Of a stretch of DNA of 63,770 bases, positions 3,067 through 58,370 are shown one piece after another. Numbering within the stretch: position 1 is the first letter of the stretch; each line of letters begins with the position of its first letter. The position numbers were made by a program, and so were the translations under genes. The stretch lies in assembly GCA_021323535.1 (NCBI GenBank), contig JAJONO010000017.1:1-63770 (forward strand). Direction: 5' to 3'. The notes under the pieces are model-generated. The model had not been told where the DNA came from. It did not search any database and saw only the letters and a list, made by a program, of their open reading frames with translations. The stretch is from Bacteroidota bacterium (GTDB taxonomy: Bacteria; Bacteroidota; Bacteroidia; B-17B0; Aurantibacillaceae).

Positions 3067-3702
3067 ATGCTTTATTTAAAATCTTTTTGCTTCGGGCCTT
3101 TCCAGGAAAACACCTACATTATTTACGATGATAAAGGCGAAGCTTTCATAATTGATCCGGGAAATTCTACCAATTCTGAAAATGAATCCGTAAAGAATTT
3201 TATTGCAGAAAAAAACCTGAAGCTTACACGCTTATTGCTTACACATGCGCATATCGATCATATTCTTGGCAATAAATTTATTTTTGATACTTATGGTTTA
3301 CTTCCCGAAGTAAATAAAGAGGATTTGTTTTTCATTGACAGAATGGCTCATAGTGCAAACCTTTACGGATTAAATTTTGAGCAATCTCCCGATCCGGTTT
3401 CTTACATTAACGAAGGAGATAAAATACAATTAGGAGAATATATTTTTGATTGCATTTATACACCTGGGCATTCACCTGGAAGCATTTCGTTTTACAATGC
3501 TAAAAATAAAATACTGATCAGTGGCGACGTGTTATTTAATGGAAGTATTGGCCGTTATGATCTGCCAAAAGGCGATTTAAATACGTTGATGAGTTCGATT
3601 ACAGAAAAATTATTTGTGTTACCCGATGATGTAAAAGTGTATAGCGGACATGGACCGGCTACAACCATTGGCCACGAAAAAGCCACCAATCCTTTTTTTT
3701 AG
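3067..3702 (+). CDS. MBL-fold metallo-hydrolase (YcbL / glyoxalase-II-like)
   Basis: Metallo-beta-lactamase fold hydrolase of 211 residues. The HxHxDH metal motif is HAHIDH (H60, H62, D64, H65); further ligands lie in GHSPG, in GDVLF and in the C-terminal SGHGPAT. Length and motif order match the single-domain YcbL group, close to hydroxyacylglutathione hydrolase but without its C-terminal substrate domain. Cytoplasmic. A TAATTTTG element ends five bases before the ATG, so a leaderless transcript is possible besides read-through from the amidohydrolase gene. The substrate is not determinable. Confidence 0.85.
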   Translation: MLYLKSFCFGPFQENTYIIYDDKGEAFIIDPGNSTNSENESVKNFIAEKNLKLTRLLLTHAHIDHILGNKFIFDTYGLLPEVNKEDLFFIDRMAHSANLYGLNFEQSPDPVSYINEGDKIQLGEYIFDCIYTPGHSPGSISFYNAKNKILISGDVLFNGSIGRYDLPKGDLNTLMSSITEKLFVLPDDVKVYSGHGPATTIGHEKATNPFF

Positions 3703-3861
3703 AAGACATCTCAAAAATAATTTTTGAATTTAAAAGGAAGTATTTTTTGGTCAAACAAGGCGCTTTTTGAAGGCCATACCATAGGTGTCTGGTCAAAAAA
3801 GGCAACGAAGTATGACCGAAAAAGACTCATTTTAAACCATAAGGTATTTTTAAGATGGCTT

Positions 3862-4380
3862 CTAAGAACCTTTGATCCTTACAATAGTGAATTCCTTCAA
3901 TTTTTCTTTCTGATCCTCAAATCCGCGTTCCATAATATTAATAGCGGTATCGCCTTGTAATTTGTAACGCATCACGCTTGGGAAACCTCCGAACGGGTTT
4001 TCAAAAACGAACAGGCCTTTTTCCTGCTTTGTAAGCGCGAACTCGGTTCTTTTATCTCCTGTTTGTCCTTTTACTTCATAGGTCATTTTAATCATCCCAT
4101 AATCCGCAAAAAGTTCCATGCGCATCAGGTACGAAGTATCTCCTTTATGAAGAAAATAACCTTTTCCCGAATATTCGGTATTATTACGTCTTCGCCAGAA
4201 CTCGCGGTAAATTCCATCCTCCGAAATGTATTCGTAATTTCCCTGGAACCAGTTAATATTAGTGATCTTATTGGTTTTGTCATCAACCATAACAGCTTCT
4301 CCTTCCAATTCCTTAGCAGAAGGGGTACATGTTACCAGTAGAAAAGCAAAATAAACCGGATATAGAGATTTCGTTACCAA
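3862..4380 (-). CDS. Putative lipoprotein, DUF6265-like
   Basis: A 172-residue protein whose N-terminus has a hydrophobic stretch ending in LLVTC, a plausible lipobox with Cys at residue 18, so probably lipid-anchored. The mature part contains INWFQGNYEY, FWRRR and a repeated strand pattern like the small beta-rich domain DUF6265, which starts with a similar W-x-x-G motif. The function of that domain is unknown. The gene is isolated on the minus strand between two plus-strand groups, and its start lies close to the divergent gene beginning near 4409-4475. The domain assignment is from memory of the pattern and moderately uncertain. Confidence 0.65.
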   Translation of the reverse strand: MVTKSLYPVYFAFLLVTCTPSAKELEGEAVMVDDKTNKITNINWFQGNYEYISEDGIYREFWRRRNNTEYSGKGYFLHKGDTSYLMRMELFADYGMIKMTYEVKGQTGDKRTEFALTKQEKGLFVFENPFGGFPSVMRYKLQGDTAINIMERGFEDQKEKLKEFTIVRIKGS

Positions 4381-57073: not shown

Positions 57074-57398
57074 AAGATTTTGACTGTGTATCGATTCAAT
57101 TATCTTGTCAAATCTAACAGAAATTCTTAAACGGTTAATCAGTAAAAACCCTGATAAAAGCGTGTTAAAATTTCGATTTTAGAATGTCTCTGCGTTCTCT
57201 GTTTCTCTGTGGTGAATTATAAGACATAACAGCCCAGATCCTGCCTTCGTCAGGATGACAATTCTTTATTATAAGCAAGTAAAGTATGAGCCCACCAAAT
57301 CATTTTTCCTTTTTACCCACACATTTTCCCGTTTAATCAAAACAAAGAATAAACCCGCAATTAAGTATGTAATTTTACTTCAGAAATGAAACAGTTTA

Positions 57399-57494
57399 GA
57401 ACCCCGTAAGGTTCGCTGCTAAAAGAACCGCTCTAGAATCCCGTAAGATTCGGCGGAATAAAAACAAAAAACAGTTTAGAGCCCCGTAAGGCTC
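57399..57494 (+). repeat. Three hairpin repeats with compensatory stem changes
   Basis: GAACC-CCGTAA-GGTTC at 57399-57414, GAATC-CCGTAA-GATTC at 57436-57451 and GAGCC-CCGTAA-GGCTC at 57479-57494. The six-base loop is identical in all; stem position 3 changes A-T to G-C and position 4 changes C-G to T-A, always with the matching partner. Flanks are also similar (ctttta-type before, gctg or gcgg after). Spacings are 37 and 43 bases. Confidence 0.85.
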
Positions 57495-57509
57495 GCTGGA
57501 AAAGATGTT

Positions 57510-57555
57510 GACCCCGCTGCGCCTTCGCAAAGCTTCTGCGTAGCAAGGTAAGGTC
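57510..57555 (+). repeat. Fourth hairpin repeat with an insert in its loop
   Basis: GACC, then CCG, then a 32-base insert (57517-57548), then TAA, then GGTC: the loop CCGTAA is split in two by the insert. The insert itself pairs partly: GCTGCGC near its start with GCGTAGC near its end. Stem is 4 bp. Confidence 0.55.
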
Positions 57556-57584
57556 TCATCGGAAGAACCTAACAAACAAAGATT

Positions 57585-57619
57585 ATTCCCGGATGCAGAA
57601 GATGTAGCCGGGAATTTTT
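57585..57619 (+). terminator. Terminator-like hairpin on the plus strand after the repeat array
   Basis: An 8-bp stem ATTCCCGG / CCGGGAAT with a 15-base loop, followed by TTTT on the plus strand. No plus-strand gene ends here; it would end a plus-strand transcript covering the hairpin repeats. On the minus strand the U-run is weaker (ATAATCTTTG). Confidence 0.5.
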
Positions 57620-57641
57620 ATGAATCAAAAGGAGTGAAGGG

Positions 57642-58370
57642 TTAATTGATCCATTTTACAGGATAATTTCGCTGATATTGCCTGTTAAACATGTATCTTT
57701 TGCCTTTAAGATAAATAAACTTGTTTTGATCAAAATGCAAGAGCACTTCATTAGCATCAGGACTTATTGTTACAGGATCTATTTTGATTATGTTTTCTCC
57801 AAGTTGCAAATCCTGAGAGTAAAAAACTAGTGGATCTGTAGTTGCCCTTAACACTTGCGCTTTATAATTTGCATTATTATTAACCACAGTAAAGCTTGTT
57901 ACAGTTGTTTTACTTAAAGTTAATGTGTCGCCAAAGCTTTGTGAAAATTGCGGAAGAGAATTCGTGGTTTCTATGAAAGAGTTTTGCCCTCCAAGCGATA
58001 CTGAATTAAAAACCACTCGCATTGCTTTAAATTCGGCAAGAGGATTGCTAATATCTGCTTGAAGTGTAAAATATCCAGGAAATCCTGTAAAACTCTCCAG
58101 CAGCTTATTGTTATAAATTACGTAATCAATTTGCGGTGGACTTTTTAAACTATTGTTAGGATAAGAAGCATAAAAACTGGTAGAAAAGCCAAGAGTACAA
58201 GTGTCGGTAGACCCGCTTGCGCCTCTTATAACAAGACCAGAAGAAAAGCCACCGTAAATTTCATCATCGTTTAATACCGATTCATACCGAAGTGTCTCAG
58301 TTTTTTTCTTACACCCTGCAAATGCAATAAAAAGCATGCAACACGCTATAATATTAATATGCTTTAACAT
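57642..58370 (-). CDS. Lipoprotein of unknown function (paralog 1)
   Basis: A 242-residue lipoprotein with lipobox FIAFAGC (Cys about 20) followed by a basic stretch KKKTE. The mature part is beta-rich and ends in GKRYMFNRQYQRNYPVKWIN. It starts inside the last 17 bases of the next gene upstream on the same strand. Its shape, the I/YGGF motif near the start and the GK-R-x(3)-R tail resemble its neighbour, so the two look like diverged copies. Function unknown. Confidence 0.65.
   Translation of the reverse strand: MLKHINIIACCMLFIAFAGCKKKTETLRYESVLNDDEIYGGFSSGLVIRGASGSTDTCTLGFSTSFYASYPNNSLKSPPQIDYVIYNNKLLESFTGFPGYFTLQADISNPLAEFKAMRVVFNSVSLGGQNSFIETTNSLPQFSQSFGDTLTLSKTTVTSFTVVNNNANYKAQVLRATTDPLVFYSQDLQLGENIIKIDPVTISPDANEVLLHFDQNKFIYLKGKRYMFNRQYQRNYPVKWIN

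Follow-up and report, generated by a model that had tools for sequence, protein, structure and literature searches.

An array of CCGTAA-loop hairpins in the window

The DNA analysed here, which we call the window, is a stretch of 63,770 nucleotides from a Bacteroidota genome. A preliminary description, made from the letters of the window alone, had drawn attention to three short hairpins whose stems covary around an unchanging CCGTAA loop, followed by a fourth copy with stem GACC/GGTC and a loop split by 32 nt. All four are present where they had been located, in a structure that is longer than first noted, as four outer pairs extend each of the first three hairpins and an outer stem GATG/CATC can be added to the fourth. 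The features of the locus are as follows:

57074-57642: intergenic stretch, flanked by two minus-strand ORFs, both without Pfam match
57370-57378, plus strand: promoter-like -7 box TAATTTTAC, with presumed activity
57384-57619, plus strand: putative small RNA gene of about 235 nt, its start approximate, delimited by homology with a unit in genome G058
57389-57418, plus strand: hairpin 1, inner stem GAACC/GGTTC, loop CCGTAA, outer stem CAGT/GCTG
57426-57455, plus strand: hairpin 2, inner stem GAATC/GATTC, loop CCGTAA, outer stem CGCT/GGCG
57469-57498, plus strand: hairpin 3, inner stem GAGCC/GGCTC, loop CCGTAA, outer stem CAGT/GCTG
57504-57560, plus strand: hairpin 4, outer stem GATG/CATC, inner stem GACC/GGTC, loop split into CCG and TAA
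57517-57548, plus strand: self-complementary insert of 32 nt in the loop of hairpin 4
57585-57619, plus strand: terminator-like hairpin ATTCCCGG/CCGGGAAT with a T run; a similar signal closes the G058 array

Hairpins 1 to 3, of 30 nt each, share the same architecture, made of four outer pairs that include a conserved U-G, a 3-nt bulge (UUA/CUA), five inner pairs and a hexaloop. In an alignment of these three rows all 27 of 27 cells are paired and two-sided changes occur at four of the nine pairs, a score that was equalled in 4 of 500 shuffles, and structures slid along the same alignment pair in only 19-33% of their cells. Coming from three rows, the covariation among the window hairpins alone provides modest support. 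Folding of the plus strand at 57380-57625 gave a z score of -3.89, better than 200 shuffles. Bare CCGTAA occurs 47 times in the window against 26 expected and a maximum of 40 in 100 shuffles, and the telling feature is not this count but the clustering of the motif together with paired stems. Because they sit between a promoter-like box and a terminator-like hairpin, the window hairpins appear to form one gene, and the array looks like a small non-coding RNA gene of repeated hairpins.

The same intergenic stretch holds other repeats. Two further dispersed families occupy 57187-57220 and 57226-57275 (TCTCTGCGTTCTCTG... and AGATCCTGCCTTCGTCAGGATGACA, with about 14 and about 16 matches in the genome, respectively), and a repeat around CAGTAAAAACCCTGATAAA..GTGTTAAAATTT at 57108-57173 recurs on contigs 7, 59, 134 and a few others.

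In the genome of the window, a model of the 30-nt hairpin (R2) finds strong matches, with three copies, at the window locus only, the three other matches scoring at most 16 bits. A generic model of the hairpin core (R3) finds, besides the window array, another array on contig 100, a lone hairpin in front of the queA gene and three weaker places. Among 87 genomes of the family, 15 have an R2 match at E ≤0.1, and the only strong cluster outside the genome of the window is found in G058, which belongs to a different genus and carries seven copies. This cluster (L055, minus strand) keeps the order seen in the window, with a promoter-like box first, then the hairpins and, at the end, a terminator resembling that of the window. 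The homology between both loci starts upstream of the promoter-like box and stops at the terminator, in the midst of unrelated flanking genes, so that the conserved unit is one running from predicted promoter to predicted terminator. The counterpart of hairpin 4 in G058 is unsplit (GATGCTGACCCCGTAAGGTCTCATC), and the insert in the window hairpin is therefore probably derived. With further arrays in its own genome, in G058 and in other Bacteroidota, the window array is not the isolated occurrence that, according to the preliminary description, would have suggested chance.

Split loops are abundant in the array on contig 100 of this genome (L206, 1080-1660, corresponding to about 3433-4013 of that contig), which has its own promoter-like box and terminator-like hairpin. 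A scripted count found four 6-bp hairpins with 32-nt inserts and one 5-bp hairpin with a 30-nt insert, to which a sixth, with a 33-nt insert and an imperfect stem, is added by eye; a 38-nt candidate was left out, as it spans one hairpin into the next insert. Four intact hairpins lie between the split ones. The insertion site, C[CT]G^TAA, is the same loop position as that of the insert in hairpin 4 of the window. Palindromes related to the loop inserts are present elsewhere in this genome, and such inserts were not found in 24 other arrays scanned. Altogether, the inserts look like a palindromic repeat that either entered the loop or was copied with it. Splitting may disable the site or leave it as an internal loop, and the occurrence of at least six split-loop hairpins in this genome would be odd if the site were needed, which counts against a reading of the loop as a binding site.

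A family of constant-loop hairpins in Bacteroidota

Arrays of 3-15 hairpins with varied stems, a constant loop and a single orientation recur in Bacteroidota. They were collected with a sequence-only scan for two CCCCGTAAGG 15-45 nt apart, which listed at least 119 stretches; the matches listed comprise 62 Bacteroidota, 27 actinobacterial and 30 other loci, the groups being assigned from record titles. Motifs found in this way were not selected on their outer stems, and among the matches listed the next four outward positions pair in 93, 84, 79 and 66% of the 182 motifs from 62 Bacteroidota loci, compared with 39, 50, 57 and 45% for actinobacteria (56 motifs, 27 loci) and 45, 53, 47 and 27% for other taxa (92 motifs, 30 loci). 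Similarly, a purine-pyrimidine orientation of the first outward pair was observed in 164 of 169 cases for Bacteroidota, 9 of 22 for actinobacteria and 26 of 41 for the others, again among the matches listed. The 100% pairing seen in hairpin sets picked for pairing is circular.

A set of 68 distinct hairpins, selected for at least five pairs, carries the loops CCGTAA (55), CTGTAA (10), CCATAA (2) and CAGTAA (1), and keeps the purine-pyrimidine orientation at the top three pairs in 66, 66 and 68 of its members, on stems that are otherwise free. The loop sequence CCGUAA may also resemble a conserved stretch of 16S rRNA. When hairpins with any loop of 4-8 nt are considered, CCGTAA is found in 131 of 193 inside 49 arrays of at least three hairpins, which were defined by the CCGTAA loop itself, versus 4 of 1823 outside them. 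Strand asymmetry is complete in the 44 arrays scanned, some of them near-duplicates (L073 equals L129 over the whole array), with 245 CCGTAA motifs on the array strand and 0 on the opposite one, and G-U pairs exceed A-C mismatches in these arrays (26 versus 10, p 0.011). Orthologous arrays were compared hairpin by hairpin with reference rows chosen for four pairs. In 40 such comparisons, with 8 gapped cases left aside, 12 pairs were compensated, 6 were changed on one side but kept and 7 were broken, and changes affected 7 of 240 loop sites versus 39 of 400 arm sites. The longest array read (L151) has 12 exact-loop hairpins with at least four pairs in one cluster, a number that rises to 15 by eye if shorter stems and a variant loop are admitted. 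Another array of six hairpins (L152) stands in a record titled Oscillochloris, where mis-binning is possible.

Predicted signals for transcription accompany many of these arrays. The -7 consensus of Bacteroidota is TAnnTTTG, and of the 10 arrays from the order, 8 are preceded by a promoter-like TA[N]TTTTAC at a distance of 14-50 nt from their first hairpin, versus 122 of 8000 random 110-nt stretches that contain it. Downstream, terminator-like sites follow 15 of 37 arrays versus 52 of 740 random stretches, and several more, imperfect ones can be recognized by eye. For 12 of 43 arrays (12 and not 15, a shorter same-strand ORF having probably been missed at L059b and L171), the nearest upstream ORF of at least 100 aa is divergently oriented and at most 650 nt distant, so that these arrays would need a promoter of their own and are unlikely to be 3′ ends. 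No protein family is common to the arrays, as the 21 clusters of neighbouring ORFs of at least 100 aa include none beside more than 6 of 43. Of the readings offered in the preliminary description, that of a structured RNA is well supported by the wide stem covariation, the strand bias, the excess of G-U over A-C and the promoter-like and terminator-like signals.

With regard to its distribution, a close pair of CCCGTAAG was found in 14 of 87 genomes of the order versus 2 of 87 for a reversed control, some of the single pairs being perhaps due to chance. When 395 genomes sampled evenly across the phylum were searched, 10 had the two-copy pattern, as against about 25 for the reversed control, and this count is therefore by itself no evidence for the hairpin family; at least three matches per genome were obtained in G000, G119 and G221, a number that the reversed control also reaches in two genomes. 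The arrays look patchy, accessory rather than core. Cultured strains such as Adhaeribacter aerolatus NBRC 106133 and Chitinophagaceae bacterium LGM1 are among the carriers. They were unmatched in Rfam at the gathering score, and a search of window positions 57250-57650 at E ≤1 returned no RNA family for the hairpins and no preQ1 riboswitch, only tRNAs and one sub-threshold plant miRNA. In the literature searched on Bacteroidota sponge and hairpin RNAs, queA leaders and TGT hairpins, a published description of a CCGUAA-hairpin RNA was not found, and the window hairpins apparently belong to a larger undescribed RNA family.

Hairpins of this kind also occur in viral contigs, where they follow one gene in 13 of 29 cases (L207, L209, L211-L214, L220, L227-L229, L231, L234 and L235), several of them near-identical, with stems that vary. 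In L214, the only contig translated, the pair of hairpins is flanked by a T4-like capsid gene on one side and a phoH-like ORF on the other. The second viral hairpin is next to a T-rich stretch and is thus terminator-like. Among annotated capsids, the closest come from Flavobacterium phages, at 55%, and from a Microcystis phage, at 49%. Hairpins were not found behind the related capsid genes of Flavobacterium phage immuto and Rhodothermus phage RM378, and searches of phages and plasmids with the array DNA, and of phages with the viral hairpin region, gave chance-like matches or none.

Single hairpins in queA leaders

A single hairpin of the CCGTAA type (TAATCCCGTAAGATTA) is found ahead of queA in 9 of the 11 array-bearing genomes searched, which are the genome of the window (locus L239, the gene matching Pfam PF02547) and eight of ten more; as only the best 150 of 454-1020 candidates per genome were scored in this survey, weak hairpins may be missed. 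The pattern extends through the family, where 26 of 30 fetched loci have the hairpin 21-162 nt upstream of queA and a 27th (L337) was recognized by eye. Conservation among the 26 leaders is 1.00 in the hairpin versus 0.59 upstream and 0.56 downstream, a difference that is partly selected because the loci were retrieved by the hairpin sequence. A tally with a pattern allowing three mismatches (82 of 87 genomes) was uninformative, given that the control also matches in many genomes. In many of the family leaders a TAnnTTTG-like box can be seen by eye directly before the hairpin, which would consequently begin the mRNA.

For a test across the phylum, 30 genome handles were picked blind to the leader, 20 of them array carriers, two of which are one genome, and 10 others. 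A queA gene was matched in 29 and, with L370 and L371 being the same genome, 28 distinct leaders were available. A C[CT]GTAA motif with at least three contiguous Watson-Crick pairs within 170 nt (146 nt for the leader of L344) was present in 7 of the 28 (L344, L346, L347, L350, L354, L356 and L362) versus 3 of 323 control ORFs (p 9.8e-7), and the three controls include L337, itself a queA gene, and L303, fetched for its hairpin; 22 ORFs with at least two upstream hairpins had been removed from the control set as arrays. An eighth leader, L351, forms two pairs only. In six of these eight (L346, L347, L350, L351, L354 and L356) the distance from the beginning of the motif to the start codon is 10-15 nt, and L362 has the start codon of queA within the 3′ arm of the hairpin. 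L346, L350 and L351 have similar stems and look related, so the positives are not all independent; the stems of L347, L354 and L356 differ. Variants with 7- or 8-nt loops occur in the queA leaders of L355, L366 and L367. A C[CT]GTAA hairpin with at least two pairs is absent from 20 of the 28 queA leaders, including the three with these variants and those of the array-bearing Chitinophagaceae L358-L361.

Besides QueA, some genomes encode a QueA-like paralogue of about 410 aa that is 34-41% alike; it was seen in 13 of the 19 genomes with arrays and in 3 of the 10 remaining ones. As a second target this paralogue was rejected, since the hairpin was found by script in 0 of 15 of its leaders and by eye in none in one more.

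In the set of family leaders L316-L343, the 3′ half of the queA hairpin (GTAAGATTATGA) can pair with a downstream segment, and this pairing ranks fifth or higher against 100 shuffles for 14 of 25 leaders, all from related species; the queA leader of the genome of the window, taken whole, folds into the alternative downstream pairing. Such models are compatible with a possible two-state switch between a hairpin and an anti-hairpin; as both are mutually exclusive, a factor holding the hairpin would free the downstream segment of the leader. In Rfam the queA leaders had no match, and ten queA loci searched at E ≤1 gave no preQ1 hit and sub-threshold matches that fell off the leaders. Single CCGTAA hairpins were also seen in G058 before genes that by reading are pdxH-like and holin-like (L303 and L304), possible further targets.

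A putative sponge RNA and its candidate partner

The hairpins recur, covary, lie on a single strand between flanking signals and are associated with queA, and we infer that the arrays are transcribed and bound by a common partner. Our preferred reading, to which we give a probability of roughly 0.6, is that the array acts as a sponge, taking up a factor that recognizes the CCGUAA loop and has queA under its control as well. The CCGUAA loop on each hairpin would be the binding site of this trans-acting factor, which would set queA expression by binding to the single hairpin of the leader. In part of the leaders this hairpin would compete with the downstream pairing, and in other lineages it is placed beside or over the start codon. 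The multi-copy array RNA would then soak up the factor, and queA would be released. The suggestion of protein-binding hairpins, also made in the preliminary description, is in this regard kept as a plausible one, to which the fixed loop on free stems and the occurrence of the same loop in queA leaders both point.

Few RNA regulators are known in Bacteroidota, and a fixed-loop multi-hairpin RNA with a matching conserved hairpin in an mRNA leader would offer a straightforward way to identify a new RNA-binding regulator. With QueA or TGT as the partner, the system would show control of queuosine modification downstream of preQ1, as well as a case of tRNA mimicry serving as a sponge.

QueA or TGT (the transglycosylase) is the first candidate for the trans-acting factor because CCGUAA resembles the anticodon loop of tRNA-Tyr, CUGUAAA. 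According to a study on E. coli TGT, a 17-nt tRNA-Tyr hairpin with the loop CUGUAAA suffices for this enzyme, which recognizes hairpins mainly via the loop (PMC10103133). This minimal substrate, the anticodon arm ECY-A1, would resemble the array hairpins in being short and read through the loop, with a minor role of the stem, as DNA hairpins indicate, and its loop C-U-G-U-A-A-A can be aligned with the array loop C-[C/U]-G-U-A-A (PMC10103133). In contrast to it, the array loop has six nucleotides and mostly C in place of U33, and the hairpins are found in natural arrays and in an mRNA leader, not in a tRNA. E. coli TGT needs a U where the array loop mostly has C; UGU is found in 10 of the 68 distinct hairpins (CTGTAA), and CGU in 55 (CCGTAA). 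A six-nucleotide loop with mostly C for U33 makes binding without modification likelier than a role as TGT substrate. A more specific scheme, which we put forward as tentative and with the odds somewhat against it, is one of anticodon-loop mimicry in Bacteroidota, where QueA or TGT would read CCGUAA and CUGUAA hairpins as stand-ins for tRNA anticodon arms. The queA-leader hairpin would in that case provide feedback on queuosine synthesis, the patchy RNAs with 3-15 mimics would be sponges or queuosinylation substrates, and the phage hairpin pair behind the capsid gene would tap the same factor.

Among known systems, the sponge RNAs CsrB and RsmZ are similar as discrete intergenic multi-hairpin RNAs with a common motif and a terminator, the motif being present also in target mRNA leaders. 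As judged by sequence, the window array shares this layout of recurring hairpins that display one loop motif within a single predicted RNA. The array differs from them in its loop, CCGUAA without GGA, and in the suggested target, queA. CsrA, which binds GGA motifs, was rejected as partner, since its family PF02599 was found in 0 of 87 genomes of the order (3 of 14 control genomes) and the loops lack GGA. Riboswitches for preQ1 are also small leader RNAs controlling queuosine genes, with queCDEF, queT and yhhQ as the targets named in the source (PMC11625349), and were discarded, as neither positions 57250-57650 of the window nor the 10 queA loci gave an Rfam preQ1 match at E ≤1. The RbpB and FopS RNAs of Bacteroides are, like the arrays, multicopy Bacteroidota RNAs with a protein partner; FopS differs in being a single-stranded 5′ part plus a terminator, with RbpB favouring single-stranded regions (PMC11697453), and was set aside. 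In comparison with ToxI, the RNA of type III toxin-antitoxin systems, the array repeats differ in their stems, and the 43 arrays have no common downstream gene.

The explanation that comes closest to the preferred sponge for a queA-controlling factor keeps the sponge and changes the factor, which would be a general regulator unrelated to queuosine with queA as one of several targets. The single hairpins before the pdxH-like and holin-like genes of G058 fit this possibility, which we nevertheless find doubtful, as queA was the only recurrent target among the single hairpins read (the best 150 of 454-1020 candidates in each of 11 genomes) and the loop resembles the anticodon loop of queuosine tRNAs. 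Alternatively, C(CCGUAA)G could be an unusually stable cap, and the arrays elements of stability or termination without a dedicated partner. The hairpins after one gene in 13 of the 29 viral contigs, the second of them followed by a T-rich, terminator-like stretch, would agree with such a role, as would the position of some arrays close behind a same-strand gene. However, the CCGTAA loop is found in only 5 of 109 terminator-like sites of Bacteroidota loci, where TACG is the commonest (19 of 109), the listed terminators behind the arrays have other loops, and the hairpins at or over queA start codons are left unexplained, which makes this an unlikely account of the family. Much less probable still is that the hairpins are anticodon-arm decoys shielding tRNAs against anticodon nucleases or comparable toxins, an idea in keeping with the likeness of the loop to GUN anticodon loops, the patchy distribution and the occurrence in phage contigs, but one for which no common neighbour family was found beside the 43 arrays and in which the queA leader hairpin finds no place. 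Mobile DNA hairpins of the REP type, spread by a Y1 (RAYT) transposase as had been considered in the preliminary description, are likewise short intergenic palindromes, and a palindromic insert does recur at one loop position in the genome of the window, yet hardly any weight can be given to them when the copies are clustered and not dispersed (one locus with the 30-nt model; two arrays and a few single places with the core model), no neighbour family accompanies more than 6 of the 43 arrays, and the stems are diverse within and between arrays around a fixed loop in a single orientation.
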